This document shows positions 1,857 through 12,941 of a stretch of DNA of 64,000 bases, piece after piece. Source of the stretch: Caldifarciminota bacterium SM23_42 (GTDB lineage Bacteria; Hydrothermota; Tepidihabitantia; SM23-42); NCBI GenBank assembly GCA_001303785.1, contig LJUJ01000001.1, forward strand, positions 124,001 to 188,000. Reading direction: 5' to 3'. The notes under the pieces are model-generated. The model ran no database searches. It was not told where the DNA came from and saw nothing but the letters and a program-made list of their open reading frames with translations. Positions within the stretch are counted from its first letter, which is position 1. Each line of letters begins with the position of its first letter. The translations under genes were made by a program, and so were the position numbers.

Positions 1857-2642
1857 CTAAAGCTGTGCCTTGATAGTTGCGTATTCGCTTTCGTTGTACG
1901 GTAAGTTTGTGCCGCCGACCTTTTGTATCTGCTTGTTGCCGTTGCCTATACGGTCACTCGCGGGTGGATGTGACATTAACAATTTCTCGAAGGTACTAGG
2001 AGGTTTTCCTTCCATCTGTTTGAATTTCTGAAAGATCTGTATCATCCCCTTAGGATTGTAACCCGCATTCTTAGCGTATAGGATACCATAGTTGTCGGCT
2101 TCGTATTCATTCTCGCGGCCGTATCCAAGCAAAATCAAGCCAGTAGCAGCATCCACCAATTGTCGCGCGGTGGCGCTCATCTTATCACCCAGCGCAACTT
2201 CCATGGCAATGCTGTAGCCGTAAACCGCCTGTATCCGTTTAGCCGAATGTCGAGCGACCACGTGACCGACTTCGTGAGCCAGTACTGCTGCCAACTGCGC
2301 TTCATTATCCATTTGTTTCATGAGTCCTTTGTAAATGTAGATGTAACCGCCTGGGCAGGCAAAAGCGTTTATTTCTTCACTGTCGAGTACCTTGAAAGAG
2401 TATTTCACGTCTCGGCGATCACATACGTTGGCGATCTTACGTCCAACATTTGTTACATAGCGTTGGACCTGAGCGTTATTCAGTACTCGTTCTTTGGACT
2501 CAACGTCTTTTACAACTTCCTTACCAATTTCCACTTCGGTTTCGGTTGGGATCAAGACCAAGCTCTTCTTGCCACCAGGGCCAGTTGTCACACAGCTCAA
2601 TATAAGCGCAAGCAATATGGGTACAACTAATAGTTTCTTCAT
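1857..2642 (-). CDS. M48-family zinc metalloprotease, lipoprotein
   Basis: 261 aa. The N-terminus is a lipoprotein signal with lipobox LILSC (Cys17). The zinc-binding HEVGH is at residues 123-127, and the third ligand probably lies in the later ENEYEAD motif, as in M48 peptidases. With no C-terminal TPR domain it resembles short periplasmic LoiP/YcaL-like members rather than full BepA. Such proteins degrade or check outer-membrane proteins. The start is the ATG at 2642. It lies only 5 nt after a TATAAT, so the mRNA is probably leaderless; I see no Shine-Dalgarno. Confidence 0.92.
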   Translation of the reverse strand: MKKLLVVPILLALILSCVTTGPGGKKSLVLIPTETEVEIGKEVVKDVESKERVLNNAQVQRYVTNVGRKIANVCDRRDVKYSFKVLDSEEINAFACPGGYIYIYKGLMKQMDNEAQLAAVLAHEVGHVVARHSAKRIQAVYGYSIAMEVALGDKMSATARQLVDAATGLILLGYGRENEYEADNYGILYAKNAGYNPKGMIQIFQKFKQMEGKPPSTFEKLLMSHPPASDRIGNGNKQIQKVGGTNLPYNESEYATIKAQL

Positions 2643-2647
2643 GTGCG

Positions 2648-2675
2648 ATTATAATCATCAATTAGAGAAAGGCAA
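2648..2675 (-). promoter_or_regulatory. Promoter of the M48 gene (leaderless)
   Basis: TTGCCT (2675-2670), 16-bp spacer, TATAAT (2653-2648), then 5 nt to the ATG at 2642. Confidence 0.6.
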
Positions 2676-2685
2676 GACAAAATAT

Positions 2686-2845
2686 CAAATCCGAAATTCT
2701 AATTTCTAAATTCTAGACAATATCAAAATGCAAAATTGCAAATTCAAAACGGCCATATGATAGCATGGAGTTAGTTTAGAAAATTAGAATTTTGGTCATT
2801 TGTATTTGTTTCGTATTTAGGATTTAGTATTTCGAATTTGGCTCT
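2686..2845. repeat. Dispersed AT-rich intergenic repeat, copy A
   Basis: An imperfect inverted repeat: the left arm contains AATCCGAAATTCTAA and ACAATATCAAAATGCAAA, the right arm ATTTTGGTCATTTG and TTTCGTATTTAGGATTT. Degenerate relatives lie at about 13333, 22240 and 32426, always between genes. There is no coding capacity. Confidence 0.6.
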
Positions 2846-2851
2846 CGTGTG

Positions 2852-4774
2852 TTATCTGTATTTCTGTCCTAAGAGCCTTACGTCTCCTCGTTTGATTGTG
2901 ACACCACGGGTGTCAAAATATATGAGAAGGGGTAGTACAAACTTTCGACTTGCATTAAGCAAATCACGGAATTGGGATACTCTTATTTCTTTGTTTTTTC
3001 TCAGATATTCTACCAGTTTTTGCTCTGCTTCTTTCACATATTTCTGGTGTAAGACAACACCCTCACCGGCATTCACCAGCAATCCTGTATCGAGCATATA
3101 CCGGTGAGCTTTCTTAACGATGTTTTCGGGTCCAAGATTTTTGGCCATAAGTGCGGTGTAGGCTGGTGGTTTGTAACCGGCATCGAGAAATATCTGTTCA
3201 ATCTTCTTGATAGTGGCATCCAAATCTTTGTCCACGACAACTCTATGTTCAAAAAGATTAACTTTGCCATCGGTTGTCAGGCGTACGGTTTTTTCCTGCA
3301 CCATCTTTGTTAGCGTACGGTCTAACAGGATCTTGTCGAGACCACGACTGATGCTCTTCAGTAGTCCAAGCGGCAGCATACCAACACCGGTTGGATGACT
3401 TATATGATATACTTTTAGATTTTCAACTATTTTGTCTTTCAATTTTCTATAATTACTTTTGTGGTAATACAGTTTGCGTTTATCGTCGAGGCATGTAATC
3501 TTACCGCTCTGGGTAAGGGATTGTACCAACGCCTCCACTTCATTCAAAGGTAAGTTGACATCGTGTGCGATTTCTTCAAGCTTCCTGGGTAGGTCGAAAT
3601 TAGACAGTAAATCCTCCTCGACCACGACAATCGGTTCTCCTACCTCCATACGCTGTAAGTGGCTTATCAGTTTTTCGTCAAACCCTCTTGCCTTGGTTGC
3701 TTTTGGCTCGATGATTAGACCACCCCCGATTGTCGTTTGCGGTGAGTATGTTCGTATAACATAGTTGTCGTTTATGTCGCACACTGCTGGAGATTCAAGC
3801 CTGAATTGTACCATGGCTTTCTGTCCTGGCTCGAGTGTTTTTTTGTCAAGCAGCACGACTCGGCCGAATATCTCGTTGGTACCGATATGAATGCGCAGCC
3901 GTGCAAAATTCTTTAGAGGTTTACCCACTGATTTTAACAGATACAGCGATGCATTCAGATATTCAGATGGTTCGAAATAGCCTTGTTGGGCAAGGACATC
4001 ACCTCTATCGATGTCGTCTTTTTCAGCGCCAACCAAGTTTATCGCCGCTCGGAAACCAGTCCCTACTTCGTCGACTTTTTGATTGTGGACTTCAATACCC
4101 CGGACTTTGACACTTTTCTTCTCGGGTAGCAATTCGAGAGTATCGCCGGTTTTTATTCTGCCGGAAAGCACGGTTCCGGCGACTACGGTACCGAAGCCTT
4201 TTATAACAAATCGCCGATCGATAGGCATTCTGAAGATACCACGATCTATTTTTGCTTCGGTTTGGGCGATCAGTTCGTCAAGTACCTTTCTGAGTTCTTC
4301 TATCCCGTCTTTGGTGACATTTGATACGGTAATTATCGGAGCGTCCTGGAGGAATGAACCGGTCAAGACATTTTTCACATCTTCTGTAACGATATCTAGC
4401 ATCTCAGGTTCGACCAAGTCCTTCTTAGTTATTGTTATAACCCCTTTCTTGATACCTAGGAGTTTGAGAATTTCTAAATGTTCATAGGTCTGGGGCATAA
4501 CACCGTCATCTGCGGCTATTACAAGAATGACAAAGTCGATTGTCGAAGCGCCAGCCACCATATGACGCACGAATTTCTCATGACCAGGCACGTCAATGAT
4601 CGTTACATCTTCACTATAGAAGACGAACCCGAGGTCAGTGGTCATGCCGCGTTCTTTTTCTTCCTTGAGACGATCTGGGTCGACGTCGGTGAGCGCCTTG
4701 ATCAAGGCGCTCTTGCCGTGGTCAATATGCCCTGCGGTGCCGATAACTATGTGTTTTTTCGAAACACTGGTCAT
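2852..4774 (-). CDS. selB: Selenocysteine-specific elongation factor SelB
   Basis: 640 aa. SelB delivers Sec-tRNA to the ribosome at UGA codons that carry a SECIS hairpin. The N-terminal EF-Tu-like GTPase shows G1 [11 protein letters not shown] (residues 12-22), G3 DVPGHEKF and G4 TKKD, followed by beta-barrel domains ([18 protein letters not shown] is the usual SelB/EF-Tu domain 2 start). The C-terminal part (about 380-640) matches the winged-helix repeats that bind SECIS RNA. Length is normal for the family. It lies 173 nt downstream of selA, so co-transcription is likely. A small hairpin (4792-4809) sits just before the start codon. Confidence 0.97.
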
Positions 4775-4791
4775 GGTTAGGGTTAAACGGT

Positions 4792-4809
4792 GACGATGCC
4801 TGTATCGTC
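4792..4809 (-). promoter_or_regulatory. Hairpin in the selB leader
   Basis: Perfect 6-bp stem GACGAT/ATCGTC with a 6-nt loop, ending 17 nt before the selB ATG. In E. coli a SECIS-like element upstream of selA has been reported to allow SelB-dependent feedback; whether this hairpin does the same here is inference. An outer 8-bp inverted repeat (CGGTTACG/CGTAACCG) lies at 4822-4879. Confidence 0.3.
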
Positions 4810-4947
4810 TGTCGTAGACCGGTTACGTATGACCATAAGAAAAACGTGACCTCCAGACGAAACAGGCTGCGTAACCGCTAAACGTAAGACGTTGCCTAAG
4901 TAGTTGGACCAGAGGAAGAGTTTCTTAACCATAAATATGTTACGTTG

Positions 4948-6339
4948 TTAAGCTGACTTTAGAATGGTCTTGAAGGCTTCGAGTATAGTTCTCTCCTCGC
5001 CTTTGAGTACGGTGCGGAAGTCAAGGAGGAGGGTATCATCGGCGACCCTGCCGAAGACGGGTTTCCTACAAAGACGGAGCGCTCTGGCAATTTTCTGAGC
5101 CTGGATGGTCTTTGCTTTAACGACAACCACATAGGTGGGAATTCGCTCGGTACTCAAGGAACCGCCGCCAATTTCACTGAAATCGGACCGGACGGTGATT
5201 TCTAGTTGTCCCTGGAATTCTGCTCTCAACGCTCGCGCGCATCGGTTTGCGTGATTCTTGATTTCATTTAATGGTTTAAGCAAAATGCCGAAAACGCCGT
5301 GATTTCTAATGAATGTTTCCTCGGTTACAAGAAACAGTTGAAGCGTGGCTTCGAGTACTGCATTGGTCAATTTGTCACAACGAAATGCCCGAGTTAACGG
5401 ATTTTTCTTGATTCTTTCGATATACACCTTCCTGCCAACAATGATGCCGCATTGAGGGCCGCCAATCAACTTATCGCCGCTGAAGCAAGCTAGATCAGCA
5501 CCAGTGACTATGCTGTCTTGTACCATGGGCTCTTTGGGCAGACCGTACTTGGATAGATCAATCAATGCACCGCTACCGAGGTCATCAATTACTGGGATGT
5601 CATGCTTTTTACCAAGTTGTACAAGCTCATCTAGCGGGACTTCTTTGGTGAACCCGACGATGCGGTAATTGGATTGATGCACACGCAGTAGTGCGCCGGT
5701 TTGCTCATTTATGGCATTCTCGTAATCCCTGAGGTGCGTGCGATTCGTGGTTCCCACCTCATGCATGATTGCCCCACTTTGAGCCATAATTTCCGGAATC
5801 CGGAAAGCACCACCAATTTCGACAAGCTGACCCCTTGAGACAACGACCTCTTTACCCTTGGCCATTGCGTTGAGTACGAGCATGGTTGCTGCGGCATTGT
5901 TATTGACTACAATTCCGGACTCTGCACCAGTTAGTATCTGCAACAATCGGCTAATCTTCTTGTAGCGGTCTGCTCGCTTACCCTCTTCATCGATTTGTAA
6001 GCGCGAGTAACCGATGGATACGTCGTGTGCAATTTTGGCGATATTCTTGCTGAACGGAGCACGGCCGAGACCGGTATGAAGCACTACGCCCAGGGCATTC
6101 ACTGCGTAACAGAAATAAGGGCTGATAAGGTCTTTTAGTTCATCGAGTATGTTTTGCTTTAGATGTGTCAAATCGAGTCTTTCGCCGGCTTTTACACTTT
6201 CTCGAAAAGCATCTATGTTGTCACGCACAACGGTTGTTACGTGTGTGTGTTGGAGTATGTCGAGACACTCCTTGAGTTCAGGCCAGTTGAGTATTTTATC
6301 AACTGACGGTATATTTCTGAGAATTTCCTCAGTTTTCAT
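4948..6339 (-). CDS. selA: L-seryl-tRNA(Sec) selenium transferase SelA
   Basis: 463 aa from the ATG at 6339, the same length as E. coli SelA. SelA is a PLP enzyme that converts seryl-tRNA(Sec) to selenocysteinyl-tRNA(Sec) with selenophosphate. The PLP lysine lies in SGDKLIGGPQ (Lys290), and the preceding DDLGSGALIDLSKYGLP block is typical. The start is debatable. A TTG at 6357 overlaps the -10 box and is ruled out. A GTG at 6351 is 5 nt after the -10 and could be a leaderless start (467 aa). The ATG has GAAGG almost touching it. selB follows on the same strand. Confidence 0.97.
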   Translation of the reverse strand: MKTEEILRNIPSVDKILNWPELKECLDILQHTHVTTVVRDNIDAFRESVKAGERLDLTHLKQNILDELKDLISPYFCYAVNALGVVLHTGLGRAPFSKNIAKIAHDVSIGYSRLQIDEEGKRADRYKKISRLLQILTGAESGIVVNNNAAATMLVLNAMAKGKEVVVSRGQLVEIGGAFRIPEIMAQSGAIMHEVGTTNRTHLRDYENAINEQTGALLRVHQSNYRIVGFTKEVPLDELVQLGKKHDIPVIDDLGSGALIDLSKYGLPKEPMVQDSIVTGADLACFSGDKLIGGPQCGIIVGRKVYIERIKKNPLTRAFRCDKLTNAVLEATLQLFLVTEETFIRNHGVFGILLKPLNEIKNHANRCARALRAEFQGQLEITVRSDFSEIGGGSLSTERIPTYVVVVKAKTIQAQKIARALRLCRKPVFGRVADDTLLLDFRTVLKGEERTILEAFKTILKSA

Positions 6340-6356
6340 GCCTTCTTTCACGCACA

Positions 6357-6384
6357 ATTATAGTCATGTGACTGTATATGTCAA
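6357..6384 (-). promoter_or_regulatory. Promoter of selA
   Basis: TTGACA (6384-6379), 16-bp spacer, TATAAT (6362-6357). The -35 box overlaps the end of the T-tract of the terminator at 6382-6417, so the upstream operon stops exactly where the selA promoter begins. Confidence 0.75.
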
Positions 6385-7346: not shown

Positions 7347-8114
7347 TCATTTTCTGTTTGTGGTCAATATCCTTTCGAGAATCTCTCTTATACCGATATG
7401 AAGATCCAGGAATTTTTTCGAACGTCGATCTCGTGGTCTCGGTATATTAACTGTAATTGCTTCTATAATATTGCCAGGTCGATCCCGCATCACGAGAATA
7501 CGTGAGGCAAGGAACAGTGCCTCGTCAATATTATGAGTTACAAAGACAACCGTTTTCTTTTGATCCTGCCATAATGCGAGTAATTCCTCTTGTAATCGGT
7601 GACGAGTACGTTCATCGAGCGCGCCAAACGGTTCATCAAGCAGTAAGAGCTTAGGGTTATACGCAAGTGCCCGAGCAATGGCTACTCTTTGCTGCATACC
7701 ACCCGATAGCTCATACGGATAAGCTTTTTCAAAACCCTTGAGGCCAACCAGATTGATGTAGTATTGCGCTTCTTTGTAGCGGTTCTTTCTTGATATATGT
7801 TTCATTTCCAAACTGAAGCCGATGTTATTGATGACGTTTCGCCATGGGAAAAGCGAGTACTGTTGAAAGACAAGGGTAGCATCGTTGTTGAGACCTTCAA
7901 TGATTCGATTATCGATGCTGATAGTACCGGCGCTCGGTTTATCCAACCCCGCGATGAGCCTGAGGAGTGTGGTTTTGCCACAGCCAGTGGGTCCTACGAT
8001 GCATAAGAATTCACCTTCTTCGCAATGGAAAGATAGGTCTGATATGGCCGTGATTTCTTCTTTGTGTTCGCCGACAAAGGTTTTCCGGATGCCGTCCACT
8101 TTTAAAAAAACCAT
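7347..8114 (-). CDS. ABC transporter ATP-binding protein (nitrate/sulfonate/taurine type)
   Basis: 255 aa. Walker [10 protein letters not shown], signature LSGGMQQR and Walker [13 protein letters not shown] are intact, and length and sequence fit the SsuB/TauB/NrtD group that powers import of small anions or organosulfur compounds. The ATG at 8114 is preferred over the TTG at 8117: GGAG lies 5 nt before it, and it shares one base with the stop of the permease gene (TGATG). Part of the operon 12390-6429. The substrate cannot be told from sequence. Confidence 0.93.
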
Positions 8115-8965
8115 CAACGCTCCTTGGCTTGCCAGAACGATGTCTGGTCGGCGATCAGCTTTACGACGTAACTGAGCATGGCGCCGACTGCACCGATGAG
8201 CATCATGCCAGCGATCAGAATATCCATCTCAGCCAATTCGTAGGAGAACATTATTAGATAACCGATACCGGCATCGCTACCGGGAAGCATTTCTGCGGCA
8301 ATGATAACCATCCAGGATACTCCGAGTCCGATTCTTAATCCCGTGAGAATGGCGGGCAAAGCTGAAGGCACGATGACTTTCCTGAATAGTTGGTTCTTAT
8401 CAGCGCCCAGAAGCAGAGCGGATTCAATGAGGATATTTTTAACTGATTTCACCCCGTGCACAGTGTTCAAGAACACTGGAAAGAAACCACCGTAGAATAT
8501 AACAAAGAGCATACCAAGTTGAATATGCCCGAAGATGCTCGTGGTGTAGCGGACGCCAAATATTTCCGCAACAGTGTAGGTTTTAAATATCACCAGCGCA
8601 AATGGAATCCAAGCAATTGGGCAGAGGGGTCTGAGAATTTCGATTATCGGACTGAAGAGCCTGTGAACGAGCACATAGCGGCCAACTAATAGTCCCAAGG
8701 GAATTCCAATCAGCATCGCGAGTATGAAACCAAGGATCACCCTGGATGCACTGATCACAATGTGACGTAGGTAACTTCCCGTGTTCAATAGATCCGTGAA
8801 GGGATGGGCGAGTCTATCGATTACGGCTTCGACTTTCGGGAGAAGCGCGGGATTGTCAAGGCGCACGGCAAAGAATTCCCATATGACGACGATGATAATT
8901 GGTATGATCAGTGCAAGGACTATTGTGTTGGTCAGTTTAATACCACTTCTCCAGTTTAAGTTCAT
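8114..8965 (-). CDS. ABC transporter permease (SsuC/TauC-like)
   Basis: 283 aa with about six membrane segments; the region around [24 protein letters not shown] is the EAA loop that contacts the ATPase. The ATG at 8965 was chosen because AGAAAGG lies 7 nt before it. The gene therefore overlaps the end of the binding-protein gene by 29 nt in another frame, which points to translational coupling. It forms an importer with the ATPase downstream and the lipoprotein upstream. Confidence 0.93.
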
Positions 8966-10055
8966 CTGCTGCCTTTCTAAGCGCGCTGAAATCATATAGT
9001 ATTTCCTCAGCCGCTTTGCCGGTTTTTTCCTTCAACTTGCCTTCGAGTTTGCCCAAACGGTTCATTTCGTCGATCCAAACCTGCATTGCCTTTATCCAGT
9101 CTTCATCCGGATTCGTTGTGAAACCAGATGTCGGTAGCGAAATAGATTCAACTTCGATTGATGTACCGATCCACTCGGATGCGTCTTGGACATGCATTTC
9201 AGGATCTTCGTTCGCGTATTGCGTGGCAAGGATTATTAGCTTAAGGAATTCCTTTATGACGTCATTCTTCTTTACCATGGCTGAATCGGTTGCGGCAATA
9301 CAACAGCATGGGTGATCTTTCCAGATACCCGGCGGCAATTCGTTTAGATCAGCAACACACTTGCCCACGCCCTTGGTTTCGGCCATGGCACACCATGGAT
9401 TATTTGAAACATATCCGTCGATTATGTGGTTCTGAAGGCCGGGCACGAGATTCTGTTCACCCTTCATATGCACCATGAGAACGTCTTTGTTCCTGTCCGA
9501 CTTGTCACTCGTGTAGGTCAACCCCTCTTCCTCAAGCGCGCGTTCGAAAATCAACTTGGCTACAGCAACTGGATTCTTGAAGCCTATTCGGATCGGTTCG
9601 TCGCTTTCCTTTACCCACGCTACAAAATCCTCCCAAGAATTGGTCGGGTTGTCTGGAGTGAGCACGAGCATATCACCTTTTGTGTGCAGTGGTGCTATGA
9701 TCTTCATGGGTGAGCCCTTATCCGTGAAGAAAGCCACCGCGGCAACTCCACCGAAACCAACTTCGAAATGACCTTGGGACATTAGCGTGGGCATTTTTGA
9801 ACCGCCACCAGAGAGGTAGAGTTCAATATCAGCAATCTTCTTGCCGTTTTTGATTAATTCGTAGTGTTTCTTAGGTTCCATTTCCTGCAACCAGACGCCT
9901 GCGTCGGCCTTCGTTTTCTCATGTTCCAAAGCAGCAACATAAAGAGCAGACTGATGATCATGCCCAACATAACCCATTTTCAGCACTGGTATCTCTCTTT
10001 TGGCACAAGAGATAATGAGTGCCACGAGAATTGCCAGACCGAATATACTTCTCAT
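8937..10055 (-). CDS. ABC transporter substrate-binding lipoprotein (NMT1/SsuA-like)
   Basis: 372 aa with lipobox LIISC (Cys17), so it is anchored in the membrane and faces the periplasm. The fold is that of NMT1/SsuA-type proteins, with MKMGYVGHDHQSALYVAA-like first strand and LMSQGHFEVGFGGVAA. A cysteine run (HPCCC) near residue 250 resembles the conserved HPCC position in nitrate/sulfonate-type binding proteins. The ATG overlaps the activase stop (ATGA) and has a GGAGG site. Insertion of this gene directly after the activase ties the importer to the reductase. Candidate ligands include sulfur, selenium or nitrogen compounds; none is shown. Confidence 0.88.
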   Translation of the reverse strand: MRSIFGLAILVALIISCAKREIPVLKMGYVGHDHQSALYVAALEHEKTKADAGVWLQEMEPKKHYELIKNGKKIADIELYLSGGGSKMPTLMSQGHFEVGFGGVAAVAFFTDKGSPMKIIAPLHTKGDMLVLTPDNPTNSWEDFVAWVKESDEPIRIGFKNPVAVAKLIFERALEEEGLTYTSDKSDRNKDVLMVHMKGEQNLVPGLQNHIIDGYVSNNPWCAMAETKGVGKCVADLNELPPGIWKDHPCCCIAATDSAMVKKNDVIKEFLKLIILATQYANEDPEMHVQDASEWIGTSIEVESISLPTSGFTTNPDEDWIKAMQVWIDEMNRLGKLEGKLKEKTGKAAEEILYDFSALRKAADELKLEKWY

Positions 10056-10813
10056 GTCCTTACCTCCTTTTTACTTTTAGTGGCGGCTAATGCTGCTCCC
10101 ACGGCACCAACGATTTGGGGTTCTTTTGACACATGCGTTTGAGCGCCTAATCGTTTTTGTAGGAGGAAAACCATACACTTGTTCTTCGCCACACCGCCAC
10201 CAAATACTATCGGTTCTTCGAATCCCACCCTGCCCATAAGGGATATGATGCGATTGACTATGGATTGGTGCACACCGCGCGCTATACTTTGTGGATTTTC
10301 GCCTCGGGCAATTAGCGACACGACCTCTGATTCTGAAAATACCGTGCACATAGAGTTTATTGATGCAGCACTGGATGTTTTCAGCGCTTCGGTTCCGAAT
10401 TCGTCGATGGTATAGCCCAAGGTGGTTGCCATTACTTCGAGAAATTTACCGGTGCCGGCGGCGCACCGGTCGTTCATCTCGAAATCTTCAACTTTGCCGA
10501 GGTTTACCTTGATCACTTTGCTATCCTGACCCCCGATATCTAGTACTGTGCGGCAGCCGGGAAATATGAAATCTGCACCTGCGGCATATGCTTTGATTTC
10601 AGTGATCACCGGACAGTCAAGATGTGCTTGTGCAAGGTATCGGCCATAGCCGGTAGCGACGAGAGTATCGTAAGTCTGTTCGTCGAGTATTTTTCTACAA
10701 TTCATGAGGGGATCGATGCCGGTGTCGATAATGGCATAATCAGAGAGCGTTGAATCGTCAAGTATAGCAACCTTGATAGTTCGAGAGCCAACATCGAGTC
10801 CGGCGTTTCTGAT
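10052..10813 (-). CDS. ATP-dependent activase of a double-cubane/2-hydroxyacyl-CoA dehydratase-type enzyme, with ATC start
   Basis: 253 aa if translation starts at ATC (10813-10811). The protein belongs to the BadF/BadG/HgdC ASKHA ATPases, which couple ATP hydrolysis to electron injection into a partner Fe-S enzyme. Seen: phosphate-1 motif GLDVGSRTIK at the very N-terminus, LDIGGQDSKVI, the cluster-binding NDRCAAGTGKFLE, a second Cys in SINSMCTVFSESEV, and FGGGVAKN. The first conventional start (ATG 10705) would delete the phosphate-1 motif. The ATC lies 5 nt after AAGGAG, and the only codons between the upstream TAA and it are GGA-GAA-AGT. An ATG-to-ATC sequencing error remains possible. It follows the reductase gene by 9 nt. 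Confidence 0.9.
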   Translation of the reverse strand: MRNAGLDVGSRTIKVAILDDSTLSDYAIIDTGIDPLMNCRKILDEQTYDTLVATGYGRYLAQAHLDCPVITEIKAYAAGADFIFPGCRTVLDIGGQDSKVIKVNLGKVEDFEMNDRCAAGTGKFLEVMATTLGYTIDEFGTEALKTSSAASINSMCTVFSESEVVSLIARGENPQSIARGVHQSIVNRIISLMGRVGFEEPIVFGGGVAKNKCMVFLLQKRLGAQTHVSKEPQIVGAVGAALAATKSKKEVRT

Positions 10814-10822
10814 ACTTTCTCC

Positions 10823-12082
10823 TTATTCTATTTGCTCAAGGAACGCATCAATCCTAGTTTGTAGCTGACCAGTATCTTCTTCTGAGTAGTCGGTTACGAT
10901 CTTCAAGTTGGGTAGGTTTGCTTGTTTCAGTATTTGGGAAACGCGCATAGCTTCGACGTTGTAACCGTGGCAATACTGTAATATGTATTGCACAACGCCA
11001 TCTACTCGGTAGGTATTGATAATTTTCTCGATAGATTCCAGACGTTCGTTGTTGGGTGTGAAGCATGAACAATTGATTTTCATATAACGTTCGGCAAGCG
11101 CGTTTAACTGTTGTTCGATCGTTCTCGTTTGGTCATCGACTAGGTTTTCGAAGTATCGTGTGCCTGTGCATGTTTCGTCTATTACCACAGAGGCGTTCGA
11201 TTTTTCAATGAGTGAGTGTACTTTCCAGTTACCCATGACTGAGGGACAACCAGAAATCATGATTCTTTTCGTGCCTTTTGGGAAAGGAGAGAAGCCCTCG
11301 TCGGCACGTTTTTCGAGTTCGTGGTTCAATTTGTTGAGGTATTCTGTAAACCGTACTGGCTCGTCATTGAGTGCTGCTTGCATAACGACGAGTGCGTCTA
11401 ATCCGCTTATTGGTGGAGGATCGATTTTGCGCATTTCATTGAGCTTCTGCAAAGCGCGCCGTTTTTGGTTCATAATGGCAATCGTTTCGCTGAGACGTCT
11501 TGCTTCCACTTTCTTGCCGGTCAGCTCTTCAACTTTGTCCTTGAATTCCTCTATCGCTTTGAACCACAGGTCGAAATCCAACTTGCTTTTTTTCTGTGGA
11601 ACTTCCATAACGTGAAAGTTGACGACATCCCAAGTTTTCTTCTTTGCATCACATGTCGTTTCGCCGACGCCGAGGTCTTTGATTGGACCATAAGGGCAGA
11701 TTTTGCCAAGCGCAAGTCCCATCGTAGATTTGATCAGTGGGCAAATATCGCGTGGAAACATCTTCTCGCCATAGGGGATCGAGAATTGACTTCCTCCGCA
11801 TAATGCTACCGGGATGGCATCAGCCGCCATAGCTATCTCATCAGGTACGTATATACAGAACGTACCAATGAATTTCTTACCGTTCTTTCTTGCCTCGATG
11901 AGTTCGGCGACCCGACCGCCGTGTGATTCATGAAGGACGTGATCGAAGTAATCAATGCCAGCGGGTCGGTTTTTCTGGGCGCCAACAGTTTGGTTGAAAG
12001 TCTTGTCTATTGAACGCAACAATTCCTTATGCAACTCCACATCCATTCCTAGTTCGTTCCACATTTGCTCGTGGTTGGTCAT
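10823..12082 (-). CDS. Double-cubane-cluster anaerobic reductase (HgdB/YjiM-like)
   Basis: 419 aa. It is a single-subunit member of the 2-hydroxyacyl-CoA dehydratase superfamily; the classical enzymes have two subunits (HgdA/HgdB), whereas here one gene sits beside the activase. This matches double-cubane-cluster proteins, of which the Carboxydothermus enzyme reduces small unsaturated molecules. Conserved-looking cysteines occur in ALCGGSQF, RDICPLIKS, GKICPYG, GETTCDAKKK, SGCPSVMG, DETCTG and QYCHG. The enzyme is expected to be cytoplasmic and oxygen-sensitive. ATG overlaps the stop of the upstream FTR-like gene (ATGA) and has AAAGGGAGAG before it. The physiological substrate is unknown. Confidence 0.88.
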   Translation of the reverse strand: MTNHEQMWNELGMDVELHKELLRSIDKTFNQTVGAQKNRPAGIDYFDHVLHESHGGRVAELIEARKNGKKFIGTFCIYVPDEIAMAADAIPVALCGGSQFSIPYGEKMFPRDICPLIKSTMGLALGKICPYGPIKDLGVGETTCDAKKKTWDVVNFHVMEVPQKKSKLDFDLWFKAIEEFKDKVEELTGKKVEARRLSETIAIMNQKRRALQKLNEMRKIDPPPISGLDALVVMQAALNDEPVRFTEYLNKLNHELEKRADEGFSPFPKGTKRIMISGCPSVMGNWKVHSLIEKSNASVVIDETCTGTRYFENLVDDQTRTIEQQLNALAERYMKINCSCFTPNNERLESIEKIINTYRVDGVVQYILQYCHGYNVEAMRVSQILKQANLPNLKIVTDYSEEDTGQLQTRIDAFLEQIE

Positions 12083-12390
12083 TTTCTCTCCCTTTCGCTC
12101 TCACGAAAAAATAGCTTACAGAAACATTGCCCATCATTTTGGACTTCATCGGCAAGGGGAGGGCAAGGACAGAGTATATCCTTTTTCGGATTAAGCGGAT
12201 GGCTCTGCTTACATGGGCAGTAGTACTTTCCGAATTCATTGTGGTTCATTGTCATTAGACCGACTACTTTTTGAACCCTTTCTTGGTCAGGGTTTAGCAT
12301 ATAGCCATTCTTTTCCGCGATCTTCGTAATTCTAGCATGATTCTCGTTGTACTCTTGGGTACCTACTACCGAATCCCATTTATTAGCCAT
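12079..12390 (-). CDS. Ferredoxin-thioredoxin reductase catalytic-subunit-like protein
   Basis: 103 aa. Three cysteine pairs, CPC-N13-CPC-N12-CFC, match the order found in the catalytic chain of ferredoxin-thioredoxin reductase, which binds a 4Fe-4S cluster next to a redox-active disulfide; the plant/cyanobacterial spacing is CPC-N16-CPC-N8-CHC, so this is a variant. The ATG at 12390 follows GGAGG by 7 nt and is preferred over a TTG at 12414. As the first gene of the operon it could pass electrons from ferredoxin to a dithiol carrier or to the neighbouring reductase. Confidence 0.85.
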   Translation of the reverse strand: MANKWDSVVGTQEYNENHARITKIAEKNGYMLNPDQERVQKVVGLMTMNHNEFGKYYCPCKQSHPLNPKKDILCPCPPLADEVQNDGQCFCKLFFRESERERK

Positions 12391-12471
12391 TACATAACCT
12401 CCTCTCTTAGACAACGTGCTTTCTTTTGAATACCATCGTGGCGTAATTAGACGTTGGATTGAATGGAGTTG

Positions 12472-12690
12472 TTAGATACTTATGAACGAGGTTGTGTGAT
12501 CGGACTCGACCGAGCCCTGCTTGCGGGTGCTTCACTTCCATGCTCCTTCACAAAATCCTGCAAGCTTCCTATCCGTGAGTAATACAATGCTGTTGTTGTT
12601 TGTTTCTTGGACCTTTAATAGGGTAAGTTGGATACAACGGAGGTATGTTTCAGTTCGCACCCGACCGGGTAACGAGAGGGTGAACTTCAT
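12472..12690 (-). CDS. Candidate small selenoprotein or leader ORF with in-frame UGA (uncertain)
   Basis: From an ATG at 12690 with a strong site (GGAGG, 6 nt away) 52 codons are open, then TGA (12534-12532), then 19 more codons to TAA. Fourteen nt after the TGA a stem GGGCTC/GAGTCC with a GGTC loop forms (12502-12517). That is the same offset as the hairpins after the UGA of the two firmer selenoprotein genes here, and E. coli fdhF also has GGUC in its SECIS loop. The protein, if read through, is 72 aa with Sec53 and two Cys; I recognise no family. If not read through, a 52-aa peptide results. It lies 82 nt upstream of the FTR-like gene and may be the first gene of that operon. Confidence 0.35.
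12502..12517 (-). promoter_or_regulatory. SECIS-like hairpin of the candidate ORF
   Basis: 6-bp stem GGGCTC/GAGTCC (one G-U) closing a GGTC loop; the loop begins 21 nt after the UGA at 12532. Confidence 0.4.
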
Positions 12691-12735
12691 ATCTTCCCTC
12701 CGTTATGGTACAAAATATGTAATCTCATGTATATA

Positions 12736-12763
12736 AAGGTATTCAACTTTTGCCAAATGTCAA
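12736..12763 (-). promoter_or_regulatory. Possible promoter of the FTR/DCCP operon
   Basis: TTGACA (12763-12758), 16-bp spacer, TACCTT (12741-12736). The -10 keeps only the three most conserved positions, so it is weak and may need an activator. It would give a leader of about 40 nt before the ATG at 12690. Confidence 0.35.
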
Positions 12764-12853
12764 GTGAATATTTGACTGAGAACTGTGAAGGCACGACTCC
12801 TCTTACTTCAAGAAGAGTGCTAGGGTCTTCTTATTGCGAAGCAAACAAATGGA

Positions 12854-12889
12854 ATTCTGGTATTCTGGTAATTACCAGAATACCAGAAT
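12854..12889. repeat. Perfect 36-bp palindrome
   Basis: Two direct copies of ATTCTGGT followed by their mirror, with TAATTA at the centre; all 18 base pairs are perfect. It lies about 90 bp upstream of the weak promoter at 12736-12763 and about 50 bp after the terminator of the small selenoprotein gene. Either a tandem operator for a dimeric regulator or a hairpin-forming element would fit. Confidence 0.7.
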
Positions 12890-12941
12890 GGGAATGCATA
12901 ATGCTACCAAGCGGTATGGCTATGGTTGCTATGGATAACGA

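Follow-up and report, generated by a model that had tools for sequence, protein, structure and literature searches.

A tandem UGA-hairpin leader, a candidate translational selenocysteine sensor, ahead of a selenium gene cluster in WOR-3 bacteria

Results

A selenium gene cluster with a leader of three overlapping reading frames

We analyzed a stretch of 64,000 nucleotides from Caldifarciminota bacterium SM23_42 (contig LJUJ01000001.1, positions 124,001 to 188,000 of the forward strand), hereafter called the window, and all coordinates refer to this whole stretch. It contains genes of selenocysteine (Sec) synthesis together with an operon that starts with an FTR beta-like gene:

887-980: tRNA-Sec
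2852-6357, minus strand: selA and selB, following the importer and a porin-like gene (PF03841, PF09107)
7347-10055, minus strand: ABC importer, consisting of a binding protein (NMT1/SsuA/SaoX-like), a permease, and an ATPase
10052-10822, minus strand: ASKHA activase of DCCP (TIGR00241 above cut-off, PF01869)
10823-12082, minus strand: double-cubane-cluster reductase, DCCP (NF040772 above cut-off, PF06050)
12079-12390, minus strand: FTR beta-like protein, first gene of the operon (PF02943)
14555-13521: SelD with CAGU

The nearest NCBIfam model for the FTR beta-like protein was the FtrB double-selenoprotein family NF041072, at 47 bits against a cut-off of 160. This family also has selenoprotein members, and the FTR behind the putative Sec-sensing leader described below is one of its cysteine forms.

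Two further features were found upstream of the operon. A gene similar to SCO4226/DUF4242 (13228-12989, PF14026) has an in-frame UGA (AAAU-KAV) with a GGA-triloop hairpin 21 nt on, and its small product is a probable selenoprotein. This gene ends about 260 nt ahead of the leader transcript start, and the leader lies between it and the FTR/DCCP operon. A perfect 36-nt palindrome, ATTCTGGTATTCTGGTAATTACCAGAATACCAGAAT, was located at 12853-12890, some 90 nt ahead of the leader promoter. It occupies the same place in three sister genomes (loci L010, L015, and, in degenerate form, L020) and recurs at a few other sites in genomes of the genus. It could be either a regulator site or a small dispersed repeat.

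A preliminary description of this region had noted a 52-codon ORF with a strong ribosome-binding site that ends at UGA, followed 14 nt later by a stem with a GGTC loop. We found both: the ORF runs from an ATG at 12690 to a UGA at 12534-12532 behind the SD GGAGG (12701-12697), and a 6-bp stem stands at the place described, with its loop starting 20 nt past the UGA. Beyond this description, we identified a second identical element at the start of the ORF, a 13-codon ORF upstream of it, and a third ORF that links the second UGA to the operon. The leader features, all on the minus strand, are as follows:

12758-12763, minus strand: -35 box TTGACA of the leader promoter (from TTGACx and its spacing to the uORF0 start in relatives)
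12736-12741, minus strand: -10 position TACCTT (from the sequence; weak here, TATAAT or TATATT in relatives)
12687-12728, minus strand: uORF0, predicted leaderless, 13 codons, ATG at 12728, MRLHILYHNGGKI, stop codon UGA#1 (from the start position in relatives)
12697-12701, minus strand: SD GGAGG of ORF1, within uORF0 (from the sequence)
12687-12690, minus strand: junction 1, ATGA, formed by UGA#1 (12689-12687) at the end of uORF0 and the overlapping ATG of ORF1 (every element has RUGA here)
12659-12670, minus strand: hairpin 1, SECIS-like, ACCC-GGTC-GGGT, loop GGTC at 12666-12663, 20 nt past UGA#1
12532-12690, minus strand: ORF1, 52 codons, ending at UGA#2 (stop at UGA#2 also in relatives)
12543-12547, minus strand: SD AGGAG of ORF2, within ORF1 (from the sequence; SD at the same place in relatives)
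12532-12535, minus strand: junction 2, GTGA, formed by UGA#2 at the end of ORF1 and the overlapping GTG of ORF2
12502-12517, minus strand: hairpin 2, SECIS-like, GGGCTC-GGTC-GAGTCC, loop 20 nt past UGA#2 (from covariation and UGA spacing)
12472-12531, minus strand: putative Sec read-through tail of ORF1, 19 codons and TAA (12474-12472), ending 81 nt ahead of the FTR ATG at 12390
12407-12535, minus strand: ORF2, 42 codons, GTG at 12535, TAA at 12409-12407, 16 nt ahead of the FTR ATG

The leader thus consists of three ORFs (12728-12687, 12690-12532, and 12535-12407) linked by two UGA/start overlaps, with ORF1 in the middle. Both copies of the element have the same order, namely an SD, RUGA, exactly 20 nt, and a stem with a GGUC loop. 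At the RUGA junctions we found the hallmarks of termination-reinitiation, which are overlapping stop and start codons and an SD inside the preceding ORF. The reading frames account for the layout with two elements, because ORF1 stops at UGA#2 and ORF2 runs to the FTR start.

The start codon of uORF0 was found 27-32 nt past the TTGAC box in 29 of 30 leaders. This position suggests that the transcripts are leaderless. The -10 position was absent from the output of a generic promoter scan; it lies 7 nt ahead of the uORF0 ATG, which places the predicted 5' end of the mRNA at or adjoining the AUG. In 15 of 18 FTR leaders there is an in-frame ATG or GTG exactly 13 codons ahead of UGA#1, and in the remaining leaders the distance is 12-20 codons.

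Other readings of the leader RNA were examined and set aside. Pairing between ACGGAGG and CCTCCGT at 12630-12710 could indicate a tRNA-like or other known RNA, but neither ARAGORN nor Rfam gave a match there; Rfam at gathering scores found only tRNAs in the window, with weak chance hits in the leader region. Sequestration of the SD, in which GGAGG pairs with CCUCC or CCUCU at a fixed +46, was seen in seven first elements from the same genus but did not reach significance beyond it. The fold of the whole leader has no unusual stability (z -0.3).

The element is conserved and its stem covaries

We compared the FTR leaders of relatives, and our census covered 147 genomes of the phylum and 42 Fermentibacteria genomes. 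The stem, the UGA, the spacing, and the reading frames are conserved in six sister genomes, across the order, and in one further family. The conservation proposed as a check in the preliminary description was borne out: wherever the operon is present in the genus, which is the case in six genomes, the open frame, the UGA, the stem, and the 20-nt spacing are kept. FTR leaders of these six sister genomes and of other genera contain two copies of the SD-RUGA-N20-GGUC-stem element, and in a more distant family (f2) a single junction with the same logic stands ahead of FTR. The pattern extends over genera and three families.

All 20 tandem leaders have UGA#2 in the frame of ORF1, and in 19 of them it is the first stop of this ORF; these counts, like the others given for relatives, are inflated by the shared ancestry of the genomes and do not represent independent events. 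Given the frame, 9-35% of shuffled sequences also stay open over ORF1. In 22 of 28 leaders, the final ORF overlaps the start of the next gene or stops no more than 30 nt away from it. We scanned for hairpins without bias, accepting GGUC or AGUUG loops on stems of at least 5 bp. A UGA is located 20-23 nt (counted from its U) ahead of the loop in all 32 leader hairpins, at exactly 23 nt in 30 of them, and UAA or UAG occurs at this place in none. Outside the leaders, 9 of 69 hairpins with such loops have a UGA at that spacing.

Compensatory changes in the stem had also been suggested as a check, and we observed them. Across the alignment 88.7% of cells are paired, the covariation score is 0.367 against 0.172 for shuffled alignments (0/500), and the true register beats all slid registers. 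The stem pairs occur as CCC/GGG, CTC/GAG, CAC/GTG, and GCC/GGC. A covariance model recovered both copies of the window, which were part of its training set, with E values of about 1e-13 in the window and, when the whole genome was searched, of 5e-12 and 3e-11. Copies outside the training set were detected in other contexts at E values from 4e-11 to 2e-6. Six of seven tandem loci found through the model obey the rule that ORF1 ends at UGA#2, and none of the seven had been used to frame the hypothesis.

Loci L005 and L074 depart from the pattern. Locus L005 is a natural double loss, with UAAUG at junction 2 and a disrupted hairpin after it, and it counts in favour of the sensor proposed below. 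Locus L074 breaks the relay with a TAG inside ORF1. In this case (2444-3468, genome G020) a degenerate leader lies directly ahead of a C-terminal SelB fragment, which reflects either decay or an assembly artefact.

No element was found ahead of the FTR genes of Fermentibacteria, which are 50-65% identical, or elsewhere in the 42 genomes, although divergent forms could escape our model, whose training set came from WOR-3.

The element is linked to selenium genes and SelB

We found the leader ahead of several kinds of genes in relatives. In genome G010 the order is selD, leader, DCCP, activase, selA, and selB, in one direction from the leader on, and in genome G025 it is selD, leader, FTR-like gene, DCCP, and activase. 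In the window, selA and selB also lie downstream on the strand of the leader. A genome from another family (G117) has the leader ahead of DCCP and ahead of a gene cut by the contig end. In four genomes (G022, G023, G024, and G026) the leader precedes a gene for a secreted Omp28/thioredoxin-like protein with ATWC (PF11551). Genome G015 has copies with weak model scores (E values of 0.01-0.03) and the right architecture ahead of both a Cys-form Omp28 and an FTR-selD-importer cluster.

The Omp28 genes allow the two forms of a protein to be compared. In six same-genus genomes the orthologue is a selenoprotein (ATxU) and has no leader, whereas the Cys form (ATWC) has the leader in the five genomes named above (G022, G023, G024, G026, and G015), of which G022 has both forms. 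The leader is not attached to every Cys-form Omp28, because a divergent FIRVTC subfamily in G018 and G009 lacks it.

Two side observations concern the gene content of the relatives. The selenium operons of loci L185 (3561-11542) and L077 (8507-15172) contain, ahead of selA-selB, genes for a SAM methyltransferase, a corrinoid protein, and a UroD/MtaA-like methyltransferase, as well as for a RACo-like activator, a second HGD-D protein, and a second activase. This set of genes perhaps serves the demethylation of organoselenium compounds. A single query also uncovered many secreted Omp28/thioredoxin-like selenoproteins with UxxC and UPxC motifs (L082-L111), often several per genome, and these look like an expanded family.

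The hairpins of the leader resemble the SECIS of selenoprotein genes in the same genomes. Those SECIS have an A-GGUC loop (Omp28) or an AGUUG loop (SelD) 22-23 nt past the UGA. Leader loops are GGUC at 20 nt, with AGUU-type loops in the second elements of L006, L007, L012, L074 (AGUUU), and L075. The leader hairpins show what is found in bacterial SECIS, namely a nearly fixed distance from the UGA to a stem-loop with a GU-containing loop, and the loop type is that of the organism's own SECIS. It had been proposed that the three UGA codons of this region share hairpin loops downstream. The distances found, 22 nt in SelD and 21 nt in the SCO4226/DUF4242-like gene, come close to those proposed, but the loop sequences there are different (AGUUG and GGA, respectively).

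Of the 21 genomes that bear the element, 20 have SelB, and the one without it is 67% complete; in the phylum as a whole, SelB was detected in 62 of 147 genomes. The leader-bearing genomes without a detected SelB, G001 and G014, are both only 66-67% complete.

Discussion

A proposed translational selenocysteine sensor

The anatomy of the leader, its conservation and covariation, the SECIS loop types that it shares with the selenoprotein genes of the same genomes, and its link to SelB and selenium genes lead us to propose that it is probably a translational sensor of Sec that controls a gene cluster for selenium acquisition and Sec synthesis. Translation would begin on the leaderless 13-codon uORF0. 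At UGA#1, and then at UGA#2, the ribosome would either terminate through RF2 or insert Sec, guided by the hairpin 20 nt downstream and by SelB-Sec-tRNA. When Sec is scarce, termination would prevail; since each stop overlaps the next start (RUGA, with an SD just upstream), ribosomes would restart ORF by ORF until they reach FTR, and expression would be on. When Sec is plentiful, a ribosome that inserts Sec would pass the overlapping start in another frame and stop about 20 codons on, the restart would be lost, and expression would be off. A shortage of Sec would thus lead to more importer, DCCP, SelA, and SelB and, in relatives, to more of the Cys protein that substitutes for a selenoprotein. 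With two junctions one after the other, the response could be sharper.

We infer SelB binding, Sec insertion, the direction of control, the leaderless start, and co-transcription as far as selA and selB. The direction is read from gene content: expression at low Sec and silence at high Sec fit targets with roles in selenium uptake, Sec synthesis, or the replacement of a selenoprotein. The absence of a terminator-like site within the leader suggests that control is translational. The preliminary description had offered Sec insertion at the second UGA as a way to sense selenium and to affect the operon, and comparative evidence now strongly supports this as the likely role of the UGA.

Several points weigh against the proposal. 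The leader loop at 20 nt is nearer to the UGA than the loops in the SelD and Omp28 SECIS (22-23 nt), although the distance in the E. coli fdhF SECIS is 18 nt, which is shorter still. In addition, the nascent chain at UGA#1 of uORF0 is only 13 codons long. The broken relay of L074, the Cys-form Omp28 subfamily that lacks the leader, the two incomplete genomes in which SelB was not detected, and the ordinary stability of the leader fold count against it as well.

Alternative explanations

A possible, if clearly less probable, explanation is that SelB acts as a roadblock without recoding, a mechanism proposed for selAB of E. coli. SelB-GTP-Sec-tRNA bound to the hairpins would block restart or initiation at the start codons that overlap the UGAs, and the UGA would be merely a stop codon or a docking site for the Sec-tRNA anticodon. 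Such a roadblock would have the same sign of control, the same factors, and the same kind of target genes (selA-selB), and every hairpin does sit just past a start codon. However, a roadblock alone does not account for the strict presence of UGA at a fixed distance, for the in-frame relay ORFs, or for a UGA that ends the preceding ORF at both junctions. In the leader of E. coli K-12 selA, which we read for comparison, a lone hairpin stands about 30 nt ahead of selA, and its surroundings contain neither a UGA/start overlap nor relay ORFs.

It is improbable that the leader is a structured RNA whose small ORFs are coupled in translation and whose signal is something besides selenium. Coupling through RUGA overlaps is common in bacteria (PMC6728339), and GGUC loops arise by chance as well, as in the control of our scan. 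Against this, the stop at the fixed distance is always UGA and never UAA or UAG, the loop types match the SECIS of the same genomes, and the element is tied to SelB and stands ahead of sel genes and Cys replacements of selenoproteins.

The preliminary description had also raised a new selenoprotein of 72 aa. We consider a functional small selenoprotein, whether this one or a peptide of uORF0 with its Sec tail, very unlikely. There is an in-frame UGA with a SECIS-like hairpin, and the frame is kept in sister genomes, but the read-through tails are only 11-30 codons long (mean 20.4 over 50 junctions), as expected by chance; 49 of 50 end in UAA or UAG, and they have no common sequence outside the hairpin. 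Such short and unconserved tails argue against a 72-aa selenoprotein, for which conserved sequence is expected on both sides of Sec. ORF1 itself varies from 37 to 52 codons among leaders, its sequences are unrelated, no redox motif is present, and a second start codon overlaps the UGA.

The term attenuation in the preliminary description is apt only in a loose sense. Transcription attenuation proper, in which translation of the leader ORFs would decide whether RNA polymerase terminates (intrinsically or through Rho) or reads on, is hardly credible, because our search of the leader turned up no terminator-like site, even if one may suppose that a leader left untranslated after early stops would permit Rho-dependent polarity.

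Implications

If the proposed Sec sensor is real, UGA/SECIS recoding would serve as a sensor beyond the mere synthesis of selenoproteins, and programs that search for selenoproteins would need to allow for UGA-SECIS pairs that are regulatory. The leader could also be used as a genomic marker, with the genes behind it expected to function in selenium acquisition or substitution. By this mark, the cluster of DCCP, FTR, corrinoid, and ABC importer genes is a candidate selenium-scavenging pathway. According to recent reviews (PMC13188914, PMC9312934), no high-affinity transport system dedicated to selenium has been reported in prokaryotes. The core of the leader is small enough for a reporter assay.

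Our literature search, which had most subscription papers outside its reach, found no description of a leader that uses Sec decoding as a regulatory decision. It may well be that no leader ORF has previously been known to sense the 21st amino acid; in this one, Sec insertion at a stop that overlaps the following start codon would break a restart relay, with two gates in series and a regulon of importer, DCCP, sel genes, and Cys isoforms in one order of WOR-3 bacteria.

Comparison with known systems

In attenuators of the trp and his type, codons in a leader ORF for the regulated amino acid sense its charged tRNA, and in the trp type an intrinsic terminator competes with an antiterminator. The present leader would likewise sense the charged tRNA of the amino acid concerned through a leader ORF, but no terminator was found in it; it has a stop/start overlap instead, and the sensing codon would be a stop codon decoded as Sec, the 21st amino acid. 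In the autoregulatory frameshift of RF2 (prfB), termination at an early in-frame UGA competes with alternative decoding and the outcome sets expression. The competition is similar, whereas the proposed sensor would respond to Sec-tRNA rather than RF2, the alternative would be Sec insertion, and the productive outcome would be termination followed by restart.

The bSECIS of selenoprotein genes share with the leader a hairpin at a fixed distance after the UGA, a G-U apical loop, and the same loop types in the same genomes. They differ in that the recoded product of the leader seems to have no function, so that the decision itself would matter. Overlapping ATGA stop/start codons with an intragenic SD have been shown by experiment to couple translation in E. 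coli and Haloferax (PMC6728339). The stop/start overlap and the SD in the upstream ORF are alike, but coupling is constitutive there, while each junction here has a UGA-SECIS that could switch it.

The selAB leader of E. coli reportedly carries a SECIS-like element, with SelB-Sec-tRNA as the presumed sensor and repression when Sec is plentiful. Ours also has SECIS-like hairpins in the 5' leader and would likewise control genes of the Sec machinery if co-transcription extends as far as selA and selB. Here, in contrast, tandem UGA-N20-hairpin junctions are set in a chain of leader ORFs, and the targets also include the importer, DCCP, and Cys isoforms. For the E. coli system of SelB autoregulation, PMC8124441 cites Thanbichler and Bock 2002 (EMBO J 21:6925). 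We file the leader as SECIS-based leader control that would work like a leader-peptide sensor, with SelB autoregulation in E. coli as its nearest known relative.
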